Below, piece after piece: positions 18,097-36,408 of a stretch of DNA of 64,000 bases. Location: the NCBI RefSeq assembly GCF_001457475.1, contig NZ_LN831029.1, positions 3,720,001 through 3,784,000 on the forward strand, in the 5' to 3' direction. The number at the start of each line of letters is the position of its first letter. The stretch's first letter is position 1. The DNA is from Achromobacter xylosoxidans. GTDB lineage: Bacteria > Pseudomonadota > Gammaproteobacteria > Burkholderiales > Burkholderiaceae_B. The notes under the pieces are model-generated. The model had not been told where the DNA came from. It did not search any database and saw only the letters and a program-made list of their open reading frames with translations. The translations under genes were made by a program, and so were the position numbers.

Positions 18097-19466
18097 GGGC
18101 CTATCCGTAATTCTGTGTGCGAGGCATATCATGAGGACTAAAGATCATGGATATGCCGATGAAGAAGAAACGCACAGCAGCCGCCCAGGCGGCGGCCCGT
18201 GGGCCGCTGCCTGAAGTCCCAGCCGAACTGCTGGACCATCTGGTCAAGGGGCAGATGACGCCCAGCGAGGTTCAAGACCTGTTCCTGTCGTTCCAGAAGG
18301 CGGTGATCGAGCGCACGATGGCCGCCGAGATGAACCTGCATCTGGGCTATCGGCCAGGCGAGGACAAGCCCGAAAGCCAGGCCAATGAGCGCAACGGCGC
18401 CAGCGGCAAGACGGTGCTGACCGAGCATGGCTCGGTGCGCGTGGAGCTTCCGCGCGACCGGGACGGCTCCTTCGCCCCGATCCTGATTCCCAAGCACGAA
18501 CGACGCTTCACCGGGTTCGATGACCGGATCATCGCCATGTACGCACGGGGCATGAGCGTGCGCGAGATCCAGGCGTTCCTGGCCGAGAGCTACGGCACCG
18601 AGGTCTCGCCTGACTTCATCACCTCGGTCACCGACGAGGTCATGGCCGAGACCATCGCCTGGCAGAACCGGCCGTTGGAGGTGATGTACCCGGTGGTGTT
18701 CTTCGACGCGTTGCGCGTCAAGATCCGCGACGACGGCGGGGTCAGCAACAAGGCGGTGTATCTGGCGCTGGGCGTGCAGGCCGACGGCCAGCGCGACGTG
18801 CTGGGCCTGTGGGTCGAGCAGACCGAGTGGGCCAAGTTCTGGCTCAAGGTCTTCAATGAACTCAAGACCCGAGAGTGCCAGGACGTCCTGATCGCCGTGG
18901 TCGACGACCTGAAGGGCCTGGCCGACGCCATCGGCACGGCCTTCCCGCGCACGACCGTGCAGACCTGCATCGTACATCTGATCCGCAACAGCCTGGATTA
19001 CGCGGGGTGGAAGGACCGCAAGGCCGTGGCCGCCGCCCTGCGCCCGATCTACGCTGCCGCCAGCGCACAAGCGGCCGAGCTGGCGCCGCAAACGTTCGCC
19101 GATGGGCCCTGGGGGACCAAGTACCCAACGATCGTCGCGGCCTGGCAGCGGGCCTGGGAGAACGTCACGCCGTTCTTCGTCTTCCCGCCGGACATCAGGC
19201 GCGTGATCTACACGACCAACGCCATCGAGAGCTTGAACATGCAATTGCGCAAGATCATCAAGACGCGAGACCACTTCCCCACCGATGAGGCCGCCATCAA
19301 GCTCCTATGGCTGGCGCTACGCAACGTACTGGCCAAGTCCGTCAGGGCGACCTTCGACTGGAAAGTCGCCATGAACCAGTTTGCTATCCTGTTCGGCGAA
19401 CGGTTTACTGCGGCGCGGGGATAACAACTTTTAAAACGCCTCGCCCACGAAAATACGGACAGGCTC
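18097..19466 (+). mobile_element. IS256-family insertion sequence, intact
   Basis: About 1.37 kb. Left end GGGCCTATCCGTAATTCTGT and right end (reverse strand) GAGCCTGTCCGTATTTTCGT share an inverted repeat of about 29 bp that continues to GCGAGGC on both sides. A single transposase fills the interior. The flanking 8 bases (TCCTCCGT and CTTGAAGA) do not match, so no target duplication is visible. The left end is 20 bases after the receptor stop codon. Confidence 0.85.
18147..19424 (+). CDS. IS256-family (Mutator-type) transposase
   Basis: 425 residues, full length. The DDE catalytic residues lie in FFDALRVKIRD, AVVDDLKGLADAIG and TTNAIESLN. The TVQTCIVHLIRNSL motif is the classic Mutator-family signature (CxxH). 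No frameshift or internal stop, so the element may still be active. Start ATG 18147 follows GAGGACTAAAG. Confidence 0.93.
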   Translation: MDMPMKKKRTAAAQAAARGPLPEVPAELLDHLVKGQMTPSEVQDLFLSFQKAVIERTMAAEMNLHLGYRPGEDKPESQANERNGASGKTVLTEHGSVRVELPRDRDGSFAPILIPKHERRFTGFDDRIIAMYARGMSVREIQAFLAESYGTEVSPDFITSVTDEVMAETIAWQNRPLEVMYPVVFFDALRVKIRDDGGVSNKAVYLALGVQADGQRDVLGLWVEQTEWAKFWLKVFNELKTRECQDVLIAVVDDLKGLADAIGTAFPRTTVQTCIVHLIRNSLDYAGWKDRKAVAAALRPIYAAASAQAAELAPQTFADGPWGTKYPTIVAAWQRAWENVTPFFVFPPDIRRVIYTTNAIESLNMQLRKIIKTRDHFPTDEAAIKLLWLALRNVLAKSVRATFDWKVAMNQFAILFGERFTAARG

Positions 19467-19746: not shown

Positions 19747-20238
19747 CTATTCCGATAATCCGATTGGCGACAGTATCTTATATTGAACGCCATCAATGAG
19801 TTCAGCATGTATTGCTTTCGTACCTACCACGACGACTAGAATGGGCGTTAACTGAGACCGTTGGAGTATCAGTTTCTCCCATTCGAGCCGGTCAATGGCT
19901 GACGGAGTCGGTACCCTCTGTGGATGAGTGTGCCACTCCCCAAGGTAGTCGATCTTCTTATCGCCTTGGCGCCAAGTTTGTTCAGCAATGTCCGCATGCC
20001 CGTCAGCTTCACGCACAAAGAAAAATGCTGAGCGCCTGTCTTTATGACCTGGTTCGGTTGCAAGCATGACCTCCAAATGCTTGCCGCGCCGGCGCCCTAA
20101 GAGAATGCCCCCACCCTCCGGTTGCCAAAAAAGCCGCTGACGATAATGCTTAAAAACCTTGAGAACATCCGGTGCAAAAACCACCAGGTTTCGGTGATCC
20201 CTGGTGGACCATTCTGTTACGAATGGCATGCTGCACAC
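19747..20238 (-). CDS. cap3: CBASS Cap3, JAB/JAMM isopeptidase
   Basis: 163 residues, a single JAB1/MPN domain. The JAMM zinc site is complete: Glu41 (EGGGILLG), His103 and His105 (GEWHTHP), Ser113 and Asp116 (PSAID). In type II CBASS Cap3 cuts the bond that Cap2 makes between the nucleotidyltransferase C-terminus and a target, so it tunes priming of cGAMP synthesis. The start lies inside the end of cap2 (22-base overlap from ATG 20238, or 13 from ATG 20229). It is the last gene of the operon. Confidence 0.9.
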   Translation of the reverse strand: MCSMPFVTEWSTRDHRNLVVFAPDVLKVFKHYRQRLFWQPEGGGILLGRRRGKHLEVMLATEPGHKDRRSAFFFVREADGHADIAEQTWRQGDKKIDYLGEWHTHPQRVPTPSAIDRLEWEKLILQRSQLTPILVVVVGTKAIHAELIDGVQYKILSPIGLSE

Positions 20239-21857
20239 GTGGGTTGCCTCACTGGATCTCCATCTGGTGCTGCTTGACTGAATCCGTGTCGAGTCACTCG
20301 GGTACGCAGCCGTGGGCTAGGTTGGTTCGCCGCCCAACTGGTTGCCATTTCTACCGCTAGGCAAGCGGCCTGAACCGAGACGCTAGCGGGGAAAGGTACG
20401 TACAAGCTTTCACATCCGTGCCCCGCCAACTCAGTCGGCACTGGCTCGTTCACTACGGGATAAAGCGAGGCTCGATGGGTGTCGGAAAGGCAGCGAGTAC
20501 ATGCTGCTTGAGTAGTGTCCCGAAACAGCGCTCGTACTGCGACTCCGGGACCATCAACCCAAACCGATAAAGTCGGGACAAAATTCCCCGAATCAGTGGC
20601 GGTACGTGTGAGGTAGTGACCTAAGGCCTCTTCTCCGGTTGCATTGATGATCAAATCGAAGGAGTTCAAGTCGGCTTCCTCCGCTTTCACGGGTAAGCTT
20701 CGTACCTTGGCTGTCGGAGCTGCGAGGGAAAGTTCTTCTTTAAGCGCATTGGACTTGTACTGCAGTGCCCGATTTAGGCCTAAACGGTGTCTACCGACAT
20801 TTTGAGGGAGGAGGATATCTGGATCAATGAGAGCCAAGTCTCCATCATTCAGGCCGGCGCCAGCCTTTACCAGCAATTCCGCCAGGAAGCCTCCTATGGT
20901 TCCGCACCCAATAAGGGCGACACGCTTGCCGGCGAGAGTCGGCCCCTCTGGCACGTTGCGTTCGGCGACGTATTTGTCGTCCATTCTGATCGAGATCATT
21001 GGATACACTTTCGAGGAATAGAGCTTTACTCTTGGATCTTGCCGTGATCGATTGACCTGATCATCCACGGTTTCGAAATCCGTCCAGAAAGCGTACTGTG
21101 TAATTGGCGAATCTATGACGCACAGTGATGCGTTTCGCCTGGAGGCAATCGATTGAAGCAGTCGGCGTTCTATGTTGCGCTTTGCCGACGGATCAAGCAG
21201 TCCCTGCCATTTCAATAGCGCAGCTACCGTTGGAGGGGGCCACACACCTTGTGACGGTTTTGGTTTGGCGGAAGTGCTTACCCTGAAAGCAGCTCCCTTC
21301 AGTACTTCTCGCTCTTGGAGCGACATGGCCTGAAGCTTCTCTCTAGTGCGAGTTACATCGTTAGTGACGAATACGACGCTGGTTGCAGCACTACCGCGCT
21401 TGGCAAACAGAATATCGAGTGCCCCAGGATCGCCGGGGTAGATGTCGAGAAAGCAGAGATCACCGTGCCAGAACGCGAAGAACTCATCCTCTAGGTCCTG
21501 ATCCATCTTGCCTCTCAACGAAAGATCCAAGATTTCTTCGGCCCGATCAATGCAGCCCAGCGCCTGGCCAGCAATGTCAAAAATATCCAGTACGACGCTC
21601 CCTTGAGCAGCGTAACAGATTTGGCCGTTAGCGCCGACATGGGCCAAAACATTCGGTGTTCCCAGTGGCAACTCTACACCAATCCTAGGAAGATCCACCC
21701 CAGTCGGATCAACAGCTACATGCGCTGCATGATTGGTACTTGCTGCTGTCAATGCGCCCTTGAACGCTAGCCAATCGCCCGCATCCCGTCCCAGGTAGGT
21801 GAACCCTCGCGATTTCATCGCACGGGTGAGCTTAGACAGCTGTGTCTCGTCGTTCAT
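20217..21857 (-). CDS. cap2: CBASS Cap2, E1-E2 fusion conjugase
   Basis: 546 residues: an N-terminal E2-like domain with likely catalytic Cys81 (GQICYAAQG), a linker, then a ThiF/E1 adenylation domain with GCGTIGG (318-323) and GRHRL (355-359). Cys482 (HGCESL) is the probable E1 cysteine. CTRC (453-456) and the terminal CAAC (541-544) could bind zinc. It conjugates the C-terminal glycine of the CD-NTase, as ubiquitin-like systems do. Its start shares a base with the stop of the nucleotidyltransferase gene. Confidence 0.92.
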   Translation of the reverse strand: MNDETQLSKLTRAMKSRGFTYLGRDAGDWLAFKGALTAASTNHAAHVAVDPTGVDLPRIGVELPLGTPNVLAHVGANGQICYAAQGSVVLDIFDIAGQALGCIDRAEEILDLSLRGKMDQDLEDEFFAFWHGDLCFLDIYPGDPGALDILFAKRGSAATSVVFVTNDVTRTREKLQAMSLQEREVLKGAAFRVSTSAKPKPSQGVWPPPTVAALLKWQGLLDPSAKRNIERRLLQSIASRRNASLCVIDSPITQYAFWTDFETVDDQVNRSRQDPRVKLYSSKVYPMISIRMDDKYVAERNVPEGPTLAGKRVALIGCGTIGGFLAELLVKAGAGLNDGDLALIDPDILLPQNVGRHRLGLNRALQYKSNALKEELSLAAPTAKVRSLPVKAEEADLNSFDLIINATGEEALGHYLTRTATDSGNFVPTLSVWVDGPGVAVRALFRDTTQAACTRCLSDTHRASLYPVVNEPVPTELAGHGCESLYVPFPASVSVQAACLAVEMATSWAANQPSPRLRTRVTRHGFSQAAPDGDPVRQPTCAACHS

Positions 21858-22996
21858 CAGCCTGCCTGCGTACGTCCTACGAGTGGCGTTGAAACAATCG
21901 CTGCCGGAGTGGCTTGGACCACTGCTGTAGCGGAGCTTACTTTGACGCGCTCAGGAGTATTCGGGAACCTTGGCCCAAACTGCTCACGTACCCAGATAAG
22001 TGCCTGGCTTGGCGAGCTGGCATGAATCGCGCCTCGCAGCGACTTCTCAAGCTGCTCCAGCTTTTGGGCAGCATCCTCAACTCCAGGCGCTCCGAGGCGA
22101 TCCGTTAGGGACTCATTGGGGTCTGTCGGGCAAAGAACGCCTTGTCGCAGGGCCCTTGGCAGGTTATCAAGCAGGTCGAGCAAGGCAAGGTCGTCTCTGC
22201 GATCACGAGGCTCGAATAAAGGAGCCGCCGCAGCCATAAGAAGGATCGATGAAGGACCACCCTGCACCCACTGCCAGTCCCTAAAAGACTTGAGATAGCG
22301 AACAATTCTGCGGAACTGCTCGCCGTGTCGATCTACCTCGCCGAGGAACCACCGTTTTACTGGTCGTGGGTCAGATTTAAACCAGTCATCTTCACGGTGA
22401 GCGAGGAGCACCTGGTCGTGCGGTAGTTCGGTCCAAGCATCGCGCTCGGCGCGTTTCATTGCCTCATCAAGCGCGTAGTAGCCGTGCGCAGACAGAGCGG
22501 CTTTGCGCAGCTGCTCAAACTGGTCGTCTGGAATTGCGTACAAAGGCACGTCGATGTGCGCGAACTCAGCTATTTCAATACGAATGCACGTTGGCTTGTC
22601 AGTAATGAGGCGCCATTTGCGTTCTTGAACCAGCGGCATCAGGGCTGTTTCAGCTGCCGCGAAAAACACTTTGCTGGCTACGCTCGGCTTCGAGGTGAGC
22701 CGCATGAAACTCAGCGGCAGGTAGGCGCCATCATCAATGTCCGCTTGTTGTTCAGGGTGCGCAGGTGCGTTGAGCGTCTTGTATGCCCAAGATCCTTGCG
22801 TGAAGAAGCGCGGCTGAACCGCCGCCCCTGGATACCCGAGCTCTTTAAGAACGGCCGGGAGCCCCGTGCGCAACTGGGCACGGATAGCTTCCTTGGCTTC
22901 GAGGATGAACTCGCAACGCCGATCCGAAAGGGTGATGTTATCCAGGAGCGTAGGCTGTTCCACGCCAGAGTAGAAGAGAGAGCTCAGATTAAGCAT
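21857..22996 (-). CDS. dncV: CBASS CD-NTase, DncV-like cyclic dinucleotide synthase
   Basis: 379 residues. Nucleotidyltransferase motif QGSWAYKT (67-74), metal ligands Asp86 and Asp88 (DIDD) and Asp149 (HIDV). The arrangement with [19 protein letters not shown] closely follows DncV (clade A), which makes 3',3'-cGAMP. The protein ends in RTQAG: a C-terminal Gly, the residue Cap2 is known to conjugate in type II systems. A GGAGAA precedes ATG 22996, and the start overlaps the capV stop by 8 bases. Confidence 0.92.
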
Positions 22997-24065
22997 GGTG
23001 GTTCTCCAGGGTTTTGTTAGGCCCGTGGAAGAACACGGGGGTGGCGGCGGTGTGATTCAAGAATGGTGTCAGTGCTTTATCACCCAGCGCCCGACGGGCG
23101 GCCTGTGTTCCTCGGCTCTTCAGCACTTGGATGGAGGCCGAACTGACTACATCCAGAGCTGCGATGTCCTTGCTCTGGTCCGGTGTGGCGGGGTCATCTA
23201 TCCGGACATAATCTTCATCCAGCAGATGGCTCAGCATCGCGTCGACGGAGTGTTCTTGCGAAGATATGACGAGGTCGAAGATTCGTGCTCCCCATTGTTT
23301 GATACCCCAGTCAAGGCCTGTGCTGCCACTCTTCGTGGCACCCAGGGTCATCGTTCCAATCGCAAGGACTCGGACGTTTCCTTTCCCGCGCGGCACTCCC
23401 AAGGCATGGTGGGCCTCATGTAAGCCAAAGAAGCCGGGAGAGTTGCCGACCAGCCCTCCATCAGCAAAGACGCCTTCTTCTCCGATGGCGTGCAGCGGGA
23501 AGTAGGTTGGAGCCGCAGCAGTTGCCAATCCAATGTCTACAAGCTTGTGCTTGTAGTCCATGAAGAACCTTGGGGAGTGCGGCGTCTTGAAGAACTGCCC
23601 GTTACCCTTGGAGTAATTAACCGTCGGGATAAGTACGCGATGCTTCAGGTCGCCGAGGGTGAGATCGCCAAAATTTTCGGTCAAGACAGCCTTTAATCCG
23701 TCAGGCGAATACTTGGCTTTGAAGATTTGAGGGAAAAGGCGTCTGGCACCTGTCGAGCCGCCAAAAATGCGACTGCCATGGTGCTCGAACATGTCTTGCA
23801 GCTGGGGCGCGGGAATCTCGGCTGCGAGCCCCAAAGCAAGTAGCCCCCCAGCTGAGGTTCCGCAGATCAAATCGAACCGCTTGGCCAGCGGTGTTCCTAG
23901 CTGCTCCTCCAGGTGCTTCAAGACGGTAGCGGTGTACAGCCCCCGGAAGCCACCACCGGATAGCGCTAAAACATGAAAGGGAGCTGTGACGCCAGTCTGG
24001 CTTCCTAGATCCTGGCTAGGCTCTTCGCCTTGGTCCAGCAAATGAGAGTCGTGCCCAGTCAACAT
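22989..24065 (-). CDS. capV: CBASS effector CapV, patatin-like phospholipase
   Basis: 358 residues from ATG 24065. The frame is open to 24326, but AAGGAGGT six bases before 24065 decides the start. Patatin motifs: oxyanion loop GGGFRG (37-42), nucleophile Ser71 in GTSAG, and Asp202 in DGG. When cyclic dinucleotide binds, CapV hydrolyses inner-membrane phospholipids and kills the infected cell. First enzyme of the operon capV-dncV-cap2-cap3. Confidence 0.92.
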
Positions 24066-24186
24066 CCGGATACCTCCTTCATCACGAGCGAGTTGGACCA
24101 ACGCAAAGGCTCGGTCAGGAGGCAATGTGTCAGGGGCAGGCGAGACGCTTGCGCTGTGCAGGATGGATAGTGATCTAGCATGCAGG

Positions 24187-24363
24187 TCACCGTTTCTCGC
24201 GACGTACACCCTTGAACGGGGTCTTGTCAGACGTTTTGACGTCCAGGAAGCGGCCTGTTTCGGTATCACGTTTGACGTAATGGCCGGAGGGGGTCTGGGT
24301 TTGGCTGCGGTCTCGCACTGCACCAACTCGACGGCCGTCGCCGATGGGATTGTTTTTTGCCAT
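24187..24363 (-). CDS. Small basic protein leading the CBASS operon
   Basis: 58 residues from ATG 24363 (MAKNNPIGDGRRVGAV), preceded by GGAGG at the right distance. Rich in Arg, Lys and Thr; no membrane segment. It contains SGHYVKRDTETGRFLDVKTS, a pattern seen in small proteins next to defence genes. It sits between the cap promoter and capV with about 120 bases to capV, so it is first in the transcript. Function unknown. Confidence 0.7.
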   Translation of the reverse strand: MAKNNPIGDGRRVGAVRDRSQTQTPSGHYVKRDTETGRFLDVKTSDKTPFKGVRREKR

Positions 24364-24392
24364 AGAAACCTCCATTCATGCTTTGTGCGATC

Positions 24393-24429
24393 ACTTTACA
24401 TCATCACTATGATTAGATCAAGCATCTAA
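24393..24429 (-). promoter_or_regulatory. CBASS operon promoter with a WYL-regulator operator
   Basis: A perfect inverted repeat TTAGAT-CAAGC-ATCTAA lies at 24413-24429. On the minus strand it overlaps a -35 TTGATC (24416-24421) that has a 17-bp spacer to a -10 TAAAGT (24393-24398). A second short dyad TATG-TCG-CATA is at 24441-24451, closer to the regulator gene. Binding of the divergent WYL protein here would shut off the cap operon. Confidence 0.65.
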
Positions 24430-24469
24430 ATATATCGCCTTATGTCGCATAGTTTGTTATTATTTCGGG

Positions 24470-25411
24470 ATGACTACAAACACGAATGAACAGCGACGCG
24501 CGCTACTGGAGGAGCTGACTCAAGCCCAGCGTGAGCGCCTGTCGCATATAGATTTCAAGTTGTTCTTCCTCGGGGAGTTGCGACGTGCTGATGTAGTAGG
24601 CCGCTTTGGCACTGGTCCAGCTGCGGCTACTCGTGACATCGCGCAGTACAGGGAGATCGCGCCTGGAAACCTGATTCTTGACAACGTCGACAAGGTTTAT
24701 CGCCCTACGGAGAGCTTTGTTCCCCTGTTCGACCATTCGCCGCAACGCGTACTAACCGCGTTGTCCCATGGGTTTGGTGAAGGGCTGGGAGATTCCCTGA
24801 AGTCGATGGTCCGATGCGAATTTCCTACAGCGCTGAATCAGCCAAAGATGTCAGTCTTGGCGCCTATTACGCGTGCTATCAACCGCGGCAAAGCGGTCAA
24901 GCTGGTCTACACATCAGTAGAAAGTGGTCGGACCGAACGCGAGATCGTTCCCATAGCTCTTGTCGACATCGGCATTAGATGGCACGTACGGGCCTTCGAT
25001 CGCAGGCGCAAAGGATTCCGTGATTTCGTCCTTACTCGTATGGAGAATCCCGTCGTTTTAGAGGAGAGCCCCATCGGCGAGGAAGAAAAAGTCGAAAAGG
25101 ACGTCCAATGGAATCGCATCATTGAGCTCGAGCTGGTTCCGCATCCAAACCACCCGCGCCCCGAGGTGGTGATGATGGATTACGACATGCCTGACGGTGT
25201 GCTGCATGTCAAAGTCCGGGCAGCGAATGCGGGCTACATGCTGCGTATGTCTACGATCGACTGCTCTCCTGATCACAGCCTTGAAGGGCTTGAGTATGCT
25301 CTTTGGCTGAAGGATCCTTTGGCACTGTATGGAGCAAGCAATGCACGATTAGCTCCCGGATATCGCGATCCTAGGCCAGATGCACCCAATGCTCCGATCA
25401 AAGCGTTGTGA
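24470..25411 (+). CDS. capW: WYL-domain regulator, CapW/BrxR-like
   Basis: 313 residues: N-terminal winged helix (LGELRRADVVGRFGTGPAAATRDI), central WYL domain (AINRGKAVKLVYTSVESGR and the HVRAFDRRRKGFRDFVLTR pattern), and a C-terminal WCX-like domain. The classical Trp-Tyr-Leu is replaced by WHVRAF, typical of CapW and BrxR. These repress defence operons and release on damage or infection cues. It is divergent from the CBASS operon and 107 bases from the small leading gene. Confidence 0.85.
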   Translation: MTTNTNEQRRALLEELTQAQRERLSHIDFKLFFLGELRRADVVGRFGTGPAAATRDIAQYREIAPGNLILDNVDKVYRPTESFVPLFDHSPQRVLTALSHGFGEGLGDSLKSMVRCEFPTALNQPKMSVLAPITRAINRGKAVKLVYTSVESGRTEREIVPIALVDIGIRWHVRAFDRRRKGFRDFVLTRMENPVVLEESPIGEEEKVEKDVQWNRIIELELVPHPNHPRPEVVMMDYDMPDGVLHVKVRAANAGYMLRMSTIDCSPDHSLEGLEYALWLKDPLALYGASNARLAPGYRDPRPDAPNAPIKAL

Positions 25412-25527
25412 AATCGATGGGGGTTAGAGCGGGTTGCTGTAGTAGGCAACTATTCTCTGATTTTGTGGGAGTGGCTCTTTTCAGTTTGTAGTGGTTAATC
25501 AGGGTTTTGCCGTCGAGTAGGCGTCAG

Positions 25528-25600
25528 CGATGGAAGCCCAAAGGAGGCGAGACTCGATGCGGAGCACGACAGCGCGGCCCGGCACAGCCGGGAGACGCCC
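25528..25600 (+). repeat. Noncoding repeat A, copy 1
   Basis: Shares ordered blocks with 60393-60489: CGATGGAAGCCC, GGCGAGAC, CTCGATGCG, GCACGACAGCGCG and GACGCCC. Between the last two each copy has a hairpin of different sequence (here CCCGGC-ACA-GCCGGG), which suggests a conserved RNA or DNA structure. It lies between capW and the CPBP gene. Confidence 0.7.
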
Positions 25601-25650
25601 GACTCGATTATTCCTTGTCGGACAGATGGAAATCAAGACTTGGGAACGAA

Positions 25651-26385
25651 ATGGACATGCGACTGGATGCGCAACGATTCAGGAATATTTTCGGTTTGGG
25701 GCAACCCTTTGCCACCCGATGGAGCGTGGCCTTACTGCTCGGCTTGTTGGCCTACCGCATCTATCGGTTGACGCTGCCCTGGATCGTCAGCCAGTTCAGC
25801 CTACAAGACATGGTGCGCTACACGATTGCCGTGTTTTACGGGCCGTCCGCCTTGCTGCTTCTCGCTCTATTCGCCGTCCACAAGCGCTGGTGCTTCCCAG
25901 ACATTCGTTTCATGGGCGGCATTCGGCGCCAACACGTCGTGCAAGGCATTTTGGCGGTATCAGCAATCTATCTGGCTACCTATGGCACGGCACTGTGGCT
26001 CGGGCAACCACGTGAAGTCAGCATGGCGAGCCTCTACGACCACAAGACGCCAGCGCAGATCGCCATCATGGTGGCCTGTCTGCTTCTCCTGCCGCCTATC
26101 GTGGAAGAACTCGCCTTTAGGCATTTTTTGCTTTCGCTATTGCCATTCAAGGCCAATAGGTGGATCGCAACGGTTGCAGTCGTGGGTACGGCAAGCTTCT
26201 TCTCCTACCAACACCACGCGAGCTACCAGTACCTGACAACCTTCCTGGCGCTATTCGCGCTTGGGATCGTATTCGCATCAGCGCGGATTCGCTCGGATGG
26301 CCTCGTGCTTCCGATAGGTTTGCATGCCTACGCCATCGCGTTCGCATTGGCCTGCGATCAGGTCATGGCTCGTATTCAGACCTAA
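25651..26385 (+). CDS. CPBP-family intramembrane metalloprotease
   Basis: 244 residues with about six membrane segments. All the CPBP (Rce1/Abi) motifs are visible: Glu152-Glu153 with Arg157 (EELAFRHF), Phe184 with His188 (FFSYQHH) and a third His in GLHAYAI. These are membrane-embedded proteases; in bacteria members serve in bacteriocin immunity, prenyl-protein processing or phage defence. I start at MDMRLDAQ (25651) because the upstream extension has no hydrophobic or conserved content and overlaps repeat A. Confidence 0.82.
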   Translation: MDMRLDAQRFRNIFGLGQPFATRWSVALLLGLLAYRIYRLTLPWIVSQFSLQDMVRYTIAVFYGPSALLLLALFAVHKRWCFPDIRFMGGIRRQHVVQGILAVSAIYLATYGTALWLGQPREVSMASLYDHKTPAQIAIMVACLLLLPPIVEELAFRHFLLSLLPFKANRWIATVAVVGTASFFSYQHHASYQYLTTFLALFALGIVFASARIRSDGLVLPIGLHAYAIAFALACDQVMARIQT

Positions 26386-26502: not shown

Positions 26503-27819
26503 ATGCGAACAAAGAATATGAGTGACGACCAATTCTTCTATTCGAGCGGATTCGCACAATGGTCCGCCCAGCACGAACCCATTGACTACCAGACGATGCT
26601 GACGTTGAGAGAAGAGGCCCTCCCCTTACTGGTCAAATCAGTCAGCGATGGCGAAATCACTACTATCGATAGCGTCGATTCGCCATTGTCGACAGCCATC
26701 AAAGCACATCATCGACTCACCGACTTTGAAATGAATGCGCATTGGATCGGCTCGTCCCAAGCGTGGTCATGCCCGTGCTGTGGACGATCGAAATTCCATA
26801 TCTCGCGGGTCGGCAAGAAGAACCAGATTCTGGCAAAGCTCGTTGTCCATCACGACCACATGGGCGAAGCGCTCAAGGCTGCTTTCCACGTAGCCTTTGA
26901 AGAAGCCGGCACCCGTGATGCACAGATCGAGGGAAATCGGCTTGTGGAACGTATCGGAAGCGCGTTTGCAGCATATGAGGAAGTCCTGATCTGCGAAGAC
27001 TGCAACAACGCCGATACCGAGGCCAAGAAGCTGTTGGAAGCGCCATCTTTCTTCTCCTTCTCGATCGGACAGATTCGCTCGTTCATCCAAAGCTCGGCGC
27101 ATCATCCTCACGATGTTGACGCCGACGCAGCTCACCAAAGATGGAAGGAAGCCAGGCCCGCTTATGAACTGCGGATGGAACTGATACGCACCGTGGCGCA
27201 GGCCGCCGCTACCGACAACCATTGGTACGAACCGTATGACCGCACGATGCAGCCGATCCCCACACTTGGTAACGGACACCGGACCGGTGATACGACCATC
27301 TTGAAGTGGGTATCCACCGAATCCCTTTATAAGGCACTCGGCCCGCAGCAAAAGACGGCCCCTAGGAATCTCACGCGCTGGCGTACGACGATACCCAAGC
27401 AGGGGCGCCCGCTTCCGGCGAACTTCCTCGCCATGCTGCTATCGGACGAATACCGAGCCCGCCGCTGGGAGCAGGTCGCCGACGATTGGTCATGCCCCGT
27501 ATGCCGACGCACCAAGCAAGAAATCCTTTATGTGGGCGACGAGGGCAAAGTCAGCTTCCACATCAGCACCAACCATGGCCGTGGCGCATGGTCAAGCGCA
27601 TCCGAGATTTGCAACCACTGCAATTCCACGCTGATGAGCCTGAAGACAGAGATATCGGAGTTGACCGGCAACCGTCCAAGGGATAGCTACGCCTTCGTTA
27701 GCCCTAACGAACTGGCTGGGATCATTCGCGCCCGCCCTCATTCTCCCCATACGATCCACGCGCCCGAAGCTGCAGCGCTGGTCACAACCATCCTGAACCG
27801 TCTCGCAGGCTCCGCATGA
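26503..27819 (+). CDS. Protein with two tandem HNH-like zinc modules
   Basis: 438 residues. Module 1: CPCC (90-93), HHDH (116-119), CEDCNN (164-169), then HHPH (200-203). Module 2: CPVC (331-334), HISTNH (353-358), CNHCN (370-374), then HSPH (413-416). Order and spacing match, so the gene arose by internal duplication. The paired CxxC, His-His and CxxCN pattern is that of HNH/treble-clef nucleases; module 1 keeps more of the catalytic histidines than module 2. It overlaps the next gene by four bases (ATGA). Likely a nuclease; biological role not known. Confidence 0.72.
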   Translation: MRTKNMSDDQFFYSSGFAQWSAQHEPIDYQTMLTLREEALPLLVKSVSDGEITTIDSVDSPLSTAIKAHHRLTDFEMNAHWIGSSQAWSCPCCGRSKFHISRVGKKNQILAKLVVHHDHMGEALKAAFHVAFEEAGTRDAQIEGNRLVERIGSAFAAYEEVLICEDCNNADTEAKKLLEAPSFFSFSIGQIRSFIQSSAHHPHDVDADAAHQRWKEARPAYELRMELIRTVAQAAATDNHWYEPYDRTMQPIPTLGNGHRTGDTTILKWVSTESLYKALGPQQKTAPRNLTRWRTTIPKQGRPLPANFLAMLLSDEYRARRWEQVADDWSCPVCRRTKQEILYVGDEGKVSFHISTNHGRGAWSSASEICNHCNSTLMSLKTEISELTGNRPRDSYAFVSPNELAGIIRARPHSPHTIHAPEAAALVTTILNRLAGSA

Positions 27820-29057
27820 CCACACCACCTGTGCTTGACGCGCTGTTCCAGGCCCTGATTACCGGGGATCAAGACGCTCTGCGTGATATCGAAATTCACC
27901 GAGCCCATGAGTGCGTGAATCTTCGCGCCCTCATCAGCACGGAGCATGCCGGTGCCGTGGCTCTCGACCTTGGGCTCGGACTGGCGTCGAGCGTATATGT
28001 GACGCCGATCTTCGAGGGGCCTTGCGCTTTTTTTATGTCCCGCCAAGTCAGCGTTCAAGCACGGCTCACCGGCGGTCAGACGACGGTACCCCTCGATTAC
28101 TCGCTGAGCTTCGACTCCAATTTCGCGGAAAAGCTGAGAGCAACACTCAGCGGCGAACACATCCAGCCCGCCGACCGCAACTGGGTGCTTGAGGTCCTTA
28201 TGCTCAAGGCCAACAATGCAAGGGTGCAGTTCGATGTCCTGCCATTTCTATATGAAAACCTACGATTAGCCCGTAGCAATGAAGAGAACCAGCGACCACT
28301 GAACACGTTGATCGCATTTCGTATGCTTAACCATCTGAACTGGTCCGCCTTCAACACAGACCCCAGTCGTTTCGATTTCGGCGTTTCACCAGAGTCTCTC
28401 CGCACGCATCTTCGTCCCGACGCTGAAGCCTTTCTTGCCGAAGCGCAGACCAGCACATCAGTGATGCACCACGAGGCAAAGAGTCTCGGCATTCAGGCAC
28501 TGCTACTTCGCTTCGCCACGTTATGGCATGAACGCAAACCCGTTCCCCAACGCATTCTTAGCGAACTGCTTGATTTCAGCCTGTCCAAACTGGGTTTCCT
28601 TCCCGTCACGGAACTGAGCTTGATCTGGAGCGGCATCAATCGCAAGGTGGTTGCGCCGTTCTTCGGCCCCATCACGGGCCAATCCAAAACAATGCTGAAG
28701 GACATTCAAGGGATGGCCTGGGATATGACGCATCTCCGACTGATGGAGCAAACGACCACCCTATCCCGGTTTGAATCATTCTTCGTTCCCTATTTCATCT
28801 CGATGGATGAGCGCTGGCGCAACCTTCTTCGCCTGAATCCGATACGCCTCATGCTAATCGATGACTCGCGAAAGAGCATGTTGTTCGCACGCGCTAACGA
28901 ACTCGATTTCCAACTGGCGTGCAACGCTTGTGCGAGCACACTGATTCAAACCGAGCGCAGCCCCGAGAAAGTGGCAGCGCGCCGTGCCGTAGCCAAGGCA
29001 ATCGACGTGCAATCGATGCGCGAGCTCGTCGCGCGTGAAGAGCACGTTTGGCTTTGA
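27816..29057 (+). CDS. Unrecognised 413-residue partner of the tandem-HNH protein
   Basis: Starts within the stop of the HNH gene, so the pair is translationally coupled. No signal peptide or membrane segment. The C-terminal half is helical and rich in Leu, Arg and Met; no Walker, HNH, REase or TIR motif is evident. Three Cys (CNACAS near residues 366-371) occur close together. It is probably a structural or sensor partner of the HNH protein. I cannot assign a family. Confidence 0.6.
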   Translation: MTTPPVLDALFQALITGDQDALRDIEIHRAHECVNLRALISTEHAGAVALDLGLGLASSVYVTPIFEGPCAFFMSRQVSVQARLTGGQTTVPLDYSLSFDSNFAEKLRATLSGEHIQPADRNWVLEVLMLKANNARVQFDVLPFLYENLRLARSNEENQRPLNTLIAFRMLNHLNWSAFNTDPSRFDFGVSPESLRTHLRPDAEAFLAEAQTSTSVMHHEAKSLGIQALLLRFATLWHERKPVPQRILSELLDFSLSKLGFLPVTELSLIWSGINRKVVAPFFGPITGQSKTMLKDIQGMAWDMTHLRLMEQTTTLSRFESFFVPYFISMDERWRNLLRLNPIRLMLIDDSRKSMLFARANELDFQLACNACASTLIQTERSPEKVAARRAVAKAIDVQSMRELVAREEHVWL

Positions 29058-29099: not shown

Positions 29100-29486
29100 C
29101 TTGCTTACCAGAAGCGTCAGGATCAGCACAAAGTCCGCTGCTGGGTGCCAAGCGCGACGGCGCCGCCAGCCACGTCTCCATCGCCGTGCCGAAGGTCTTG
29201 GCGACCACACCCAGCGTTTCTCGCACTGCTTTTCGAGCGCGCGCGAGATGCCCTTGAGCACGGCTTTGCGCGCGTCCAGGAGCAGTTCGCGCGCCACCGA
29301 CAGTGAGATGCCGCCAGGGCCGTAGCGCCCGAGGGTTAGCGTCTCGCGGCGTCCGTTGAGGCGGTAGTCGTAGCGGAAGGTGACAGTACCGCTGGGCGAT
29401 ACCGTCACGTACATCCCGTCCCGGTCAGAAGCCTTATAAATCTTGGACTTAGGCTTCAGATTTCGTAGTGCGGCGTCAGTAAGCAT
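29100..29486 (-). pseudogene. int: Broken tyrosine integrase (P4-like), N-terminal part
   Basis: Residues 1-85 (MLTDAALRNLKPKSKIYKAS, DGMYVTVSPSGTVTFRYDYR, LTLGRYGPGGISLSVAREL) are the DUF4102 arm-binding domain of P4-type integrases. After GISRALEKQ the frame shifts: the expected continuation TFGTAMETWLAA is found in another frame. The catalytic domain is missing; sequence is joined to the end of the 413-residue gene. It marks a former element boundary. Confidence 0.75.
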
Positions 29487-29510
29487 CGAGGTTTCCTCCG
29501 GCTTGTGACG

Positions 29511-29681
29511 GCTTTACCGTCAGGTTTTACCGTCAAGGACCTGGAGACCTGCTGATGCCCGGAAAGCCGCATAAAACAAGCATTCCCGAGAAGGCTTTTA
29601 CCGTCAAAGACGGTAAAAGTCTGAATAGTGAACGAGAGCGTCTTAATCCGGCCTCGATTTTTACCGTCAGCTCTACCGCCA
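29511..29681 (+). repeat. TTTTACCGTCA repeats upstream of the broken integrase
   Basis: Copies at 29511-29522 (CTTTACCGTCA), 29524-29535, 29595-29619 and 29658-29669, with a variant CTCTACCGCCA at 29671-29681. The third forms a perfect dyad CTTTTACCGTC-AAA-GACGGTAAAAG. This array lies just before the integrase start and could be arm-type integrase sites or operators of the integrase gene. Further downstream CGATAGC units (29701-29778) add more repetition. Confidence 0.6.
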
Positions 29682-29791
29682 ACTTTTTCTGCTGGCCAGC
29701 GATAGCCATCGATAGCCACCGTGACGTATTTCCTTATAAATCAACACGTTACGGCAGTTTTTCGATAGCTGGCGATAGTCCTCGAAGGACG

Positions 29792-30475
29792 TCAATTCAC
29801 TCCCAGCGGCACGTTGCTGTCCCCGCCCACACAGGCGCACTTGAGTTCCCGGCGATCGACATAGACCGCCTTGAAAACCGACACGGCCCCGACGGTCCCG
29901 ATGAACAGCGCCAACGGAATCGACACCCACATCCCCACGCCCGCGACCATCAGGACGCCTGCGATGGCCTCCGCGAACGGGTAGAAATAGGCATACCGAA
30001 CCCAGCGCTTGGCCAGCAGGTCGTAGTTGAGGAACATCGTCGCGAAGCCGTCCACGTCCTTGAGCTTCTGCAGCGCCAGGAGACACATGGCAAAGGCCAC
30101 GAACCACTCTGCCGCCTGAATGCTCCAGAGCTGGCCGAAGGCCGCCCAGCTCGCCGCCAGCGCCATCGCGGCCGCCATGGCGAACAGCGCGATCACAGGG
30201 GTGTAGGTCACGGCGTTCTTGTCCTTCACGGACATGCCGAAGAATTTGCGCAGGTCGTCGTAGCCGCCCACGCGCCGCCCGTTTATAAAGACCTGGGGGG
30301 TGGTCTCGACGCCATGCTCCTTCTTGAACGCATCCGTCTGCTCGCGGCTCGGCAAGTGTTTGTCCTCGACCTCGTAGCCCTTGCGGTTGAGCAGATCGAG
30401 CGACTTCAGCCCGTAGGGGCAGGTATGGCCGGGCATGACCATCCGGTAGAGCGTGGCTTGTTTGGGCGCAGACAT
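29792..30475 (-). CDS. Glutaredoxin-MauE fusion protein
   Basis: 227 residues. The first 80 are a glutaredoxin domain with CPYG-type active site (GHTCPYGLKSL) and TTPQVFINGRRVGGYDDL. The rest has four membrane segments of the MauE/DoxX type. It ends in a CACVGGDSNVPLG tail also found in MauE proteins. It probably passes electrons or thiols to periplasmic partners and is common in copper and mercury clusters. Confidence 0.85.
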   Translation of the reverse strand: MSAPKQATLYRMVMPGHTCPYGLKSLDLLNRKGYEVEDKHLPSREQTDAFKKEHGVETTPQVFINGRRVGGYDDLRKFFGMSVKDKNAVTYTPVIALFAMAAAMALAASWAAFGQLWSIQAAEWFVAFAMCLLALQKLKDVDGFATMFLNYDLLAKRWVRYAYFYPFAEAIAGVLMVAGVGMWVSIPLALFIGTVGAVSVFKAVYVDRRELKCACVGGDSNVPLGVN

Positions 30476-30692
30476 GCTGGACTTCTCCTGTGGGACTTTT
30501 CATGGGCCGGCCGCAGCGCCGACTATCACGGATTGAAGGACTTTGACGACATTTCCTGCCTAACCGGCGGTGGTGCAAGGGGGTGTAGGCATCTGGCTCC
30601 CGGGGCGGTCGTCAGGCTGCAACGCCGTCAGTCCTCCGTCTGCCAGAGCAACCCCGCCGCAGGCCGGCGCGCCCGCGGCGGCACGCTGGGTC

Positions 30693-31031
30693 CTAGTGGT
30701 TCTCCTTGGCATGGTTGATCGTGTACTTCGGGATCTCGACGGTCAGGTCCTCGTTCGCCACGATGGCCTGGCAGCTCAGGCGCGATTGCGCCTCTAGCCC
30801 CCAGGCCCGGTCAAGCAGGTCGTCCTCGCACTCCTCGACCTCGTTGAGGGAATCGAATCCCTTGCGCACGATGCAGTGGCAGGTCGTGCAGGCACAGCTC
30901 ATGTCGCAGGCATGTTCGATCTCGATGCCGTTGTCTAGCAGCGCCTCGCAGATCGAGGTGCCGACCGGCACGTTCAGCTCGGCGCCCTCGGGCGCCAGTT
31001 CAGGATGGGGCAAGACGGTGATCTTGGGCAT
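30693..31031 (-). CDS. fdx: 2Fe-2S ferredoxin (Isc Fdx-like)
   Basis: 112 residues from MPKITVLPHPELAPEG. Cluster ligands appear in CDMSCACTTCHC and in the C-terminal SRLSCQAIV. The frame continues 20 codons upstream inside the spacer after cueR; ATG 31031 with GGGAGAGACC before it is the natural start. It follows cueR in the same direction by 16 bases. A second, cluster-borne copy of a housekeeping iron-sulfur ferredoxin is known in copper islands, where copper damages such clusters. Confidence 0.88.
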   Translation of the reverse strand: MPKITVLPHPELAPEGAELNVPVGTSICEALLDNGIEIEHACDMSCACTTCHCIVRKGFDSLNEVEECEDDLLDRAWGLEAQSRLSCQAIVANEDLTVEIPKYTINHAKENH

Positions 31032-31047
31032 GGTCTCTCCCGGCTGC

Positions 31048-31527
31048 TCAGTGCGCACGCGGCTTCTTTGCCGCTGCGTTGCCACTTGCACGCCGTGGCA
31101 CGGCGCCGGTGCGCGCTTCGGGCTCGTCGTCGCTGGTATCGAGTTGCTCCAGCGTGTGCAGGATCGGGCAGTCGGGCCGTTCGTCGCCGGCGCAGCACCG
31201 GATCAGCGCCTTGAGCGTCTCGGCCATCTCCAACATGCTCGCGATGCGCCGGTCCAGCTCGGAGATGTGCTGCTGCGCCAGGCGCTTGACGTCGGCACTC
31301 CGGCGCGACTTGTCGTTCCACAGTCCCAGCAGGTCCGTGATCTCGGCCACCGAGAAGCCGAGGTCGCGCGCACGCCGGATGAAGTGCAGCCGGTGTACGT
31401 CGTCCTGGCTATAGGCGCGGTAGCCCGAATCGTTCCGGTCGGCCGGGGGAATCAAGCCGATCTGCTCGTAGTAGCGGATCATCTTGGCCGAGACCTTCGA
31501 GGCCTTGGATGCTTCACCGATGTTCAT
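31048..31527 (-). CDS. cueR: Copper-responsive MerR-family activator CueR
   Basis: 159 residues with the MerR helix-turn-helix (MNIGEASKASKVSAKMIRYYEQIGLI) and dimer helix. Copper ligands Cys112 and Cys120 (CCAGDERPDC, with an extra Cys111) match CueR exactly. It has a C-terminal extension of about 30 residues beyond E. coli CueR. It lies 15 bases behind copA and should activate the copA promoter and perhaps the DUF305 promoter. Confidence 0.92.
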   Translation of the reverse strand: MNIGEASKASKVSAKMIRYYEQIGLIPPADRNDSGYRAYSQDDVHRLHFIRRARDLGFSVAEITDLLGLWNDKSRRSADVKRLAQQHISELDRRIASMLEMAETLKALIRCCAGDERPDCPILHTLEQLDTSDDEPEARTGAVPRRASGNAAAKKPRAH

Positions 31528-31542
31528 GGTGTTCCTCCTTTC

Positions 31543-34038
<2,496 letters not shown>

Positions 34039-34072
34039 GGTTGTTTCCCATAGTTGATATTCGACATGGGGG

Positions 34073-34103
34073 AGCTTAGGGTTTACCATCGTGGGAAGGT
34101 CAA
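34073..34103 (-). promoter_or_regulatory. CueR-dependent copA promoter
   Basis: On the minus strand TTGACC (34098-34103) and TAAGCT (34073-34078) are 19 bp apart, the long spacer that needs MerR-type distortion. The spacer holds a dyad TTCCCA-CGA-TGGTAA. Transcription should begin near 34066, giving a leader of about 28 bases to ATG 34038. Confidence 0.82.
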
Positions 34104-34276
34104 GCGCTTTTTTCGGGTACTGTCAGGTTTCAGAAATGGCCCGGCGCACGGGGGAAACGAGGGGCCTTGGTCGCCAGGCTCGCCCTGGTCCCGGGCTGTG
34201 CGCGCGCTCAAGCGGTCGCAGCCTCGTTGATCCTGAAGGGCACGAACAGCCGTTCGAGGGTAGGAATTTTTGAGAG

Positions 34277-34633
34277 ATGACTCCACGCAAACCAGCCAGT
34301 GCCCCACCGAAGGGCCCAAGCACCGATCTGGCCTCCCTGTCACAGAATGACGTGACCATCCTGGCCGAGACTTTCCGGCTCCTGGGCGATCCGTCGCGGC
34401 TCAAGGTCATGCTGTGCTGCATGAAGGGGTCCACGTCGGTAAGCGACATCGCGGAAGCCGTCGAACTCTCGCAGTCGTTGGTCAGCCATCACCTTCGACT
34501 GTTGCGTGGAGCCCGTCTGGTCAAGGGCGTGCGCCAGTCCAAGCAGATCTTCTATGAGGTAGCGGACAAGCACGTGAGCCAGGTGCTGCTGGACATGGCC
34601 ATCCACATCGTTGAGGACAACAGCGACGACTAG
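34277..34633 (+). CDS. ArsR/SmtB-family metal sensor (copy 1)
   Basis: 118 residues with the winged-helix SVSDIAEAVELSQSLVSHHLRLLRGARLVKG. The C-terminal helix HVSQVLLDMAIHIVED carries His and Asp residues of the type that bind zinc in CzrA/SmtB. It is a close paralogue of the gene at 37615-37992. It is divergent from copA and convergent with the nickel-type MFS gene. Zn, Co or Ni sensing is inference. Confidence 0.85.
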   Translation: MTPRKPASAPPKGPSTDLASLSQNDVTILAETFRLLGDPSRLKVMLCCMKGSTSVSDIAEAVELSQSLVSHHLRLLRGARLVKGVRQSKQIFYEVADKHVSQVLLDMAIHIVEDNSDD

Positions 34634-34671
34634 CCTTGGTGCGAAACAGCCCTTACCGCGTCCCGTGAGGC

Positions 34672-35982
34672 CTATCCTTTCGGCCAGATCCGGTGCAAGT
34701 CATCCACGACCAGCACGTGATGGTGCCCGCCTTGGTTCGCGTGCTGACGCAAGTGGGGGTGATCCGCCGACAGGTTCGGATGGTCATGGGCCAAGTCCGA
34801 CGGGTCGCTGGCCGGCCACAGCCGAAGCGCCAGCGCCACGCCAGCTAGGCCGATCAAGGACATGACGACGAACGTCGATTGCAGCCCCATGGCCGCGCCG
34901 AAGCGTCCGGCCAGCGGGTAGCAGATGAGCCAGCAGGCGTGCGACAGCGCGAAGTGGGCCGCGAAGATCGCTGGACGGTCCTCGGCGTGGGCCGAGCGGC
35001 GCAGAAGACGGCCGGATGGCGTCTGCGCCACGCTGTAGCCAAAGCCGATCACCAGCCACAGCGGCAGCAACAGCGCATAGCTCGGCAGCAGTGCGCCGAT
35101 CGCCGTGCCCACGACGAGGACAGCGGCGCCGGTGAGCATCGCGGGTCGGTCGGCTACTTTCTCCAGTAGGGACGGCAAGACGAAGGCGGCCACCATCGAG
35201 CCGCCTCCGAACGCCGCCAGTGCCCACGCCACCTCGACTTCGCCCAGGCCGAAACGCGCCTTCACGAGCACCACCGTGTTCACGATCACCATCGCGCCGG
35301 CCGCCGAGACGGCCAGGCTGATCGCCAGCAGGCCCCGCAGGCGAGGCGTGGCGAGGTAGATGCGCGTGCCGCGCGTCGTTCGCTCCCAGATGCCGCGGCG
35401 CGGGCCGGGGACGGACGTGGGCAACCGCACGCTGACCACGAGAGCGGCTGAAACGAGGAAACCGAGCACCGTTCCCGCGAACAGGTTGTGAAAGCTGATG
35501 ACGGTCAGCAGCGCGGCGGCCAGCATCGGGGAAATCAGGCTTTCCAGGTCGTAGGCCAGCCGGGACAGCGACAGCGCCTTCGTGTAGTCCTCTTCGTCGG
35601 GAAGGATGTCCGGGATGGTGGCCTGGAAGGTCGGCGTGAAGCCGGCGGATGCCGCCTGCAGAACGAAGATCAGCAGGTAGATCTGCCAGACCTCGGTGAC
35701 GAAGGGCAGGCACAGCGCGACGGCCGCTCGCACGAGGTCCAGCGCCACGAGCAGCGAGCGCCGCGGGAGCCGGTCGGCGAAGGCCTGCGCGACCGGCGCG
35801 ACCCCCGCGTAGGCCAGCATCTTGATGGCCAGCGCCGTCCCGAGCACCGCGCCTGCATCCGCGCCGGCCAGCTCGTAGGCCAGCAGGCCGAGCGCCACCG
35901 TCATCAGGCCGGTGCCGACGAGCGCGATCACCTGGGCGGTGAACAGGTGGCGGTAGGTGCGGTTATTCAGGACGGAGAGCAT
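34672..35982 (-). CDS. nreB: NreB-like nickel-efflux MFS transporter
   Basis: 436 residues, twelve membrane segments of the MFS (DUF-type enterobactin/nickel exporter branch). The C-terminus is rich in His (DLAHDHPNLSADHPHLRQH and HHHVLVVDDLH), as in NreB nickel exporters. It follows an RcnR/NreA-type repressor by 10 bases on the same strand. Nickel is the likely substrate, cobalt also possible. Confidence 0.8.
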   Translation of the reverse strand: MLSVLNNRTYRHLFTAQVIALVGTGLMTVALGLLAYELAGADAGAVLGTALAIKMLAYAGVAPVAQAFADRLPRRSLLVALDLVRAAVALCLPFVTEVWQIYLLIFVLQAASAGFTPTFQATIPDILPDEEDYTKALSLSRLAYDLESLISPMLAAALLTVISFHNLFAGTVLGFLVSAALVVSVRLPTSVPGPRRGIWERTTRGTRIYLATPRLRGLLAISLAVSAAGAMVIVNTVVLVKARFGLGEVEVAWALAAFGGGSMVAAFVLPSLLEKVADRPAMLTGAAVLVVGTAIGALLPSYALLLPLWLVIGFGYSVAQTPSGRLLRRSAHAEDRPAIFAAHFALSHACWLICYPLAGRFGAAMGLQSTFVVMSLIGLAGVALALRLWPASDPSDLAHDHPNLSADHPHLRQHANQGGHHHVLVVDDLHRIWPKG

Positions 35983-35991
35983 CGGACGGCC

Positions 35992-36249
35992 TCAGAGCAG
36001 TTTGGTCAGCGCCTTCATTTCGGTCAGAACGGAGTCCTCGTCATGGGACAGGCAGTGGTCGATGTGGTCGTGGATCAGGACGCGCTTGGCCGCCGTCACC
36101 GCGCTTTCCACCGCCGCGAGCTGGCGGGCGATGTCGAGGCAGGTTTCTCCCCCTTCGATCATCCCGATGACGTGCCGCAGATGCCCCTCGGCGCGCTTGA
36201 GCCGCTTCACCAGGTCGGGATGGGTGGTGTGCTTATGCATGTCTTCCAT
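35992..36249 (-). CDS. nreA: RcnR/CsoR-family metal-responsive repressor
   Basis: 85 residues of the DUF156 family: MEDMHKHTTHPDLVKRLKRA, GHLRHVIGMIEGG, and the DHIDHCL motif. The N-terminal His residues and Cys in the second helix are the Ni/Co-binding set of RcnR. The first gene of a two-gene operon with the NreB-like pump. I use ATG 36249; the frame to 36285 would run into the operator. Confidence 0.85.
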   Translation of the reverse strand: MEDMHKHTTHPDLVKRLKRAEGHLRHVIGMIEGGETCLDIARQLAAVESAVTAAKRVLIHDHIDHCLSHDEDSVLTEMKALTKLL

Positions 36250-36260
36250 GCTGAAATCAT

Positions 36261-36277
36261 ATCCCCCCAGGGGGGAT
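36261..36277 (-). promoter_or_regulatory. Operator of the RcnR/CsoR-type repressor
   Basis: ATCCCCCCAGGGGGGAT, a perfect 17-bp palindrome of two G6 tracts, 11 bases before the repressor start. RcnR and CsoR proteins recognise G-tracts bounded by AT-rich ends. Flanking TACT is present on one side (TACT-G6 type). Confidence 0.75.
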
Positions 36278-36408
36278 ACTGCCACTGGATGTTAGATCAA
36301 CGGCTGCTTGCCAGGCGGGGGGAATGGTCGCCGAGCCAGGCTAAGGCAATTGCCCGGAGCGGCATCCCGGCCGTGGTGAGACGCGAACACAAATGTGTAC
36401 AACAATTC

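Follow-up and report, generated by a model that had tools for sequence, protein, structure and literature searches.

Genes A and B, which overlap by four bases in a 64,000-nucleotide stretch of the Achromobacter xylosoxidans genome (contig NZ_LN831029.1, positions 3,720,001 to 3,784,000; the whole stretch is called the window below), are likely to be independent, individually mobile, defence-associated nuclease genes, which lie side by side by chance as cargo of an island. Gene A (26518..27819, + strand) is a candidate HNH-type nuclease gene with a degenerate second copy of its module, and gene B (27816..29057, + strand) encodes a protein of 413 amino acids (aa) belonging to an unnamed family. 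An earlier note on this DNA had read the two as one defence system, in which B would be the partner controlling the A nuclease, and had looked to repeated co-occurrence of homologues for support.

Distribution of genes A and B

The co-occurrence expected from such a system was not found. Gene A was absent from all the B-bearing genomes (0/13), which were searched whole, in a run that did detect three A-positive genomes. Reciprocally, gene B was found in 0/9 A-type genomes or records; this second search had no positive control within it, four of the nine hold single-module A relatives only, and the entries include an Acinetobacter plasmid copy of A in pieces. Of 399 genomes sampled from the order, 4 contain A (a single-module relative in two cases) and 1 contains B, and the window genome was the only one to hold both; of a further 297 genomes, sampled from one family, 3 contain A (again a single-module relative in two cases) and 2 contain B, none of them with both genes. 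Within its own genus, A was confined to the window genome (1/43). With no co-occurrence elsewhere, the pairing appears, within reach of these searches, peculiar to the window, and neither the pair nor the role of B as controlling partner drew support from its homologues.

Genomic neighbourhood of gene B

The defence context claimed for the two genes held up on both sides. Relatives of A on a Klebsiella phage record have Gabija and MkoC genes nearby, and named defence systems were found near B in 8/13 genome loci, with a candidate system in a ninth. The named neighbours were Hachiman (locus L001), Avs3a (L009), Qat (L003, also L004, L005, L007 and L008) and, in L012, Gabija together with a type III-A retron; the candidate system is PDC-M01A (L013). 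Moreover, a SIR2-type gene (PDC-S25, E 5.2e-28) lies near B in L010, while L011 gave weak E1 matches only and L006 weak ATPase matches only; no defence system could be attributed to L002 and L006, and the scan also returned further defence genes without locus placement. In L012, a Pseudomonas contig, the Gabija operon and the retron flank B (L012:6141-14021).

The combined PADLOC scan covered 81 of the 118 B-neighbour open reading frames (ORFs) of 200 aa or more, and QatC and QatD were matched by 5 members each. The 37 ORFs left out include the GajA, GajB, UvrD-like, PDC-M01A, Avs3a and retron reverse transcriptase genes, all of them scanned separately, and others that were chosen by eye. The scan did not assign matches to members, and the placement of Qat in L004, L005, L007 and L008 comes from gene order and sequences; the five Qat loci are not independent, because they are apparently related islands (the B genes of L004 and L005 are alike in all parts compared). 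As a control, 93 ORFs from 10 arbitrary stretches, some of them short, taken from 10 of the 13 B genomes, gave one or two PADLOC matches at 1e-30, to two PDC-S28 models with a single member apiece, against 5 of the 81 B-neighbour ORFs for QatC alone.

Distant relatives of B also occur beside defence genes. Such a relative lies upstream of avs3a, at a distance of 145 bases, both in E. coli (L091:9001-17354) and on a Klebsiella variicola plasmid of 10 kb (L075:1066-7145), the Klebsiella protein being 18% identical to B. Of 5,426 E. coli genomes, two have a distant relative adjoining Avs3 genes. A link between B relatives and Avs3 beyond chance is possible. In a Streptococcus prophage (L024:3326-6615), a distant relative of B abuts a gene of 358 aa, which in turn follows a Mrr-like restriction gene (recognised by eye), an arrangement which may represent a three-gene unit.

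Island cargo and integrases

The island carries a remnant of an integrase gene (29160..29486, - strand), whose N-terminal 81 residues share 80-83% identity with those of longer integrase ORFs found in four of the loci with B, L001, L003, L004 and L009; the DNA similarity of this region, 76-81%, spans about 29160 to 29805. In L001, L003 and L004 the integrase lies at most about 2.5 kb downstream of B and is oriented towards it. In L009 it lies about 8 kb from B with the Avs3a gene between them; the gene closest to the integrase is therefore not B in every locus. The cargo of these integrase-sharing loci varies, being Hachiman in one, Qat in two and Avs3a in another; in the window it consists of a cyclic-oligonucleotide-based anti-phage signalling system (CBASS), a CPBP gene and A. 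When the window was compared with the B loci, the DNA similarity was seen to begin within B and to stop short of A, at an identity, 65-67%, which is little informative on non-coding flanks. Since related integrases and B accompany differing cargo, the position of A beside B looks like an exchange of cargo next to a recurrent B gene.

The same loci could be read in another way, with B as an accessory of the integrase module, serving excision, maintenance or regulation of the island rather than acting as a defence effector. In fact, L001, L003, L004 and L009 combine B with longer relatives of the window integrase while the cargo changes, and five of the 13 loci (L001, L003, L004, L005 and L009) have, just downstream of B and on the same strand, a small ORF of 126-141 aa that looks AlpA-like by eye. 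We consider this role unlikely, because B is not tied to the window integrase: it is also present on Enterobacter and Pantoea plasmids, in L012 it is flanked by Gabija and a retron, in L013 it neighbours another integrase ORF, and a distant relative adjoins avs3a on the 10-kb plasmid. The window lacks the AlpA-like ORF and has the integrase remnant directly 3' of B.

The overlap of genes A and B

The four-base overlap that was reported between the two genes is confirmed, since both ORFs are on the + strand and share the ATGA at 27816..27819, where A stops and B starts. Coupling of the translation of A and B through this overlap could occur in the window; the gene upstream of B varies by locus. 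An overlap of exactly ATGA would be expected of a pair under selection, and it is not the only point that weighs against two separate genes. A contig of Enterobacter type from a viral collection (L021:102-11257) carries B at about 9.4 kb from a single-module relative of A; the 399- and 297-genome counts given above rest on the best few candidates scored in each genome; and clusters close or nearly identical to A (87-99%) and to B (85-100%) occur, unplaced, on other contigs, which would leave room for a recent, lineage-specific pair.

The rival reading is an obligate two-component system, in which A would cleave DNA and B would act as a sensor of infection or as an inhibitor of A. The overlap, the defence surroundings and the conservation of both families fit such a system; indeed, A and B are both real gene families, as they have 201 and 155 homologues, respectively, at E <= 1e-3 (120 listed for each), and the B family reaches 262 with a wider profile. 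We regard it nonetheless as very improbable, given the lack of co-occurrence in the 13 B genomes, in the nine A-type genomes or records and in the two samples shared by both searches. In addition, the longest contigs of the 120 A and 119 B clusters listed share one size only, 1918, which is below the span of A plus B, a weak comparison because each cluster is represented by its longest contig only.

Gene B and its conserved acidic residues

As to what the independent gene B may encode, its pattern of conservation makes it a candidate single-gene defence nuclease, with a putative PIN-like active site formed by D100 (28113-28115), E147 (28254-28256), D303 (28722-28724) and D331 (28806-28808, all on the + strand) and split by a helical insert. 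Each element of the series D100-S-N, E147, D303 and D331 is invariant in the alignment of the family (65/65 rows). In a wide alignment D100, D303 and D331 were present in 10/10 rows and E147 in 9/10, and the three aspartates are retained down to relatives at 17-20% identity. D100 follows a strand at 93-99, E147 is in a helix preceded by a strand at 137-140, D303 is in a helix and D331 comes after a strand at 322-328, with the helical insert between E147 and D303 dividing the acidic quartet. This order of secondary-structure elements fits the PIN topology. VapC-type PIN toxins carry their acidic motifs in the order D[ST]N ... E ... D ... TxD, which is common to B. By contrast with these toxins, B is 413 aa long, has a large insert and an N-terminal extension, shows no antitoxin upstream and gives no significant profile match.

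The statement of the earlier note that the second gene has no recognisable family was borne out in each profile library searched. None of Pfam, NCBIfam, PADLOC and PHROGs provides a name for B, and when 65 members of its family were compared with Pfam no convincing family emerged (best E 0.0038, in one member), with no PIN among the 17 Pfam families matched by any of them. No NCBIfam model was matched at E <= 1 by B or by five of its relatives, including three distant ones. The absence of a named family weighs against a PIN-like B, and so do the comparison by hhalign with 29 PIN domains, including PIN proteins of the same genus, which was not significant, the Foldseek and VIA-align searches, with no PIN entry among the matches listed, and the alignment of E147 to a gap in the K. 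variicola relative.

The surroundings of B were also inspected by eye for an antitoxin, among ORFs of at least 70 aa. The gap upstream of B is a four-base overlap in the window and ranges from about 13 to 70 bases in L001, L003 and L013, where the upstream neighbours vary; gaps this short leave no space for an antitoxin 5' of B in those loci. A comparable case may be DS-3 (DefensePredictor), which is described as a one-protein defence system with a PIN ribonuclease domain split between the N and the C terminus, without a cognate antitoxin and dependent on its catalytic residues (PMC13092281). By that published description only, B resembles DS-3 in consisting of one gene and in having its PIN-like acids divided by a helical insert. 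Searches by topic and by four B-type protein accessions, consisting mostly of listings, gave no published account of A or B.

The least probable of the explanations, a Rossmann-like fold akin to cyclodipeptide or aminoacyl-tRNA synthetases by which B would make or modify a small product, suffers from structural scores that are all at Z < 5, values common by the tool's own notes, from the lack of a sequence match to solved chains of such synthetases and from four invariant acids that resemble a metal nuclease more.

Gene A: one intact module and a degenerate copy

The ORF of gene A is open from 26503 (26503-27819, 438 aa), and the start at 26518 is preferred because of the starts of its homologues. 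Module 1 (26770..27006, + strand), the probable catalytic HNH core, comprises C90-P-C92-C93, HHDH116-119 (26848-26859) and C164-ED-C167-N168, whereas module 2 (27493..27621, + strand) is a degenerate duplicate of it, with C331..C334 and C370..C373. The core of module 1 (C90, C92, C93, H116, H117, D118, H119, C164, C167 and N168) is invariant in 68/68 rows of the alignment, and so are C331, C334, C370 and C373 of module 2; in the latter, His reaches at most 15/68 rows in any column between 335 and 369, and N374 is not conserved.

It had been claimed that A holds two HNH modules of the same order and spacing. Their homology stood, since the two are a true internal duplication (hhalign, probability 98.6%, E 1.4e-15); the equal spacing did not, with 71 residues from C93 to C164 and 36 from C334 to C370, and neither did the second HNH, which is without HHDH and variable at N374. 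When the modules are aligned, a gap faces the HHDH segment plus the stretch after it, and module 2 is therefore without the catalytic segment. As the His and Asn of module 2 are not conserved, A has one intact HNH-type module and one degenerate copy.

No HNH family matched A above the curated cut-off in Pfam or NCBIfam, Pfam yielding sub-threshold zinc-ribbon matches only; PADLOC named neither A nor B, and NCBIfam gave no match above the cut-off for either. A precomputed rubredoxin domain is annotated on many relatives of A. The endonuclease VII family phrog_2633 matches A weakly (E 0.0016), aligned on module 2, and a single-module relative of 158 aa gives PF02945 (endonuclease VII) at E 0.0016, sub-threshold at 18.8 against the curated 23.6 bits. 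Endonuclease VII-like and HNH nucleases of these two families have CxxC ... DH ... CxxCN in common with module 1, while A differs from them in its extra N-terminal helical part and its degenerate second module. We consider A a probable metal-dependent HNH DNA nuclease, similar to endonuclease VII, with one intact module and a degenerate zinc-binding copy; judging from its invariant residues, A would cut DNA by means of module 1. HNH effectors such as Septu PtuB are known from defence islands. A differs from PtuB in having no PADLOC match, and no shared ATPase partner was seen in the A loci inspected by eye.

The short relatives of A, of 146 to 189 aa, correspond mostly to module 1. One of them, of 156 aa, directly and divergently adjoins a gene of the phage-integrase family, like a first cassette (L037:7884-9492); this gene resembles an integron integrase, a label given by eye. 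Other relatives of A adjoin integrases (by eye). On a Cupriavidus megaplasmid (L078:7971-10570), a transposase-like ORF (by eye) lies between the two parts of a broken relative of A.

Surroundings in the window

The surroundings of the two genes are as had been described, with a type II CBASS and a CPBP gene on one side and the integrase remnant on the other. The CBASS (19747..25411) consists of Cap3, Cap2, CD-NTase and a patatin effector on the - strand, with a WYL regulator on the + strand, and the gene for a Rce1-like/CPBP membrane protein (25507..26385, + strand) lies between this regulator and A. Its ORF opens with TTG, and the internal ATG at 25651 is the likelier start. A transposase-like gene, of IS256 type by eye, is at the CBASS end of the island (18147-19424), and beyond the integrase remnant (29792-36285) there are Glutaredoxin/MauE-like, ferredoxin, MerR-type, heavy-metal P-type ATPase and ArsR-type genes (by eye).

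Proposed action and meaning

Since no antitoxin-like partner was seen upstream of B, the protein would probably be held inactive before infection, and by analogy with DS-3 the activated protein may cut RNA and halt the infected cell, which is an abortive outcome. A broader proposal would make the whole B family antitoxin-free, split-PIN RNases, a general last-line effector of integrase islands and plasmids triggered by, or backing, the adjacent defence system, be it Qat, Hachiman, Gabija, Avs3 or CBASS; at present we find this generalisation quite improbable.

The claimed A-B pair thus drops from the candidate defence systems and two single-gene candidates take its place. B is the more important of these, belonging to a large unnamed family that recurs in the vicinity of at least four known defence systems unrelated to one another. 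If B were a self-contained PIN effector, the idea of a one-protein, split-PIN defence would be widened beyond DS-3; if, on the other hand, it works together with its neighbours, B would represent an unusual kind of shared accessory.
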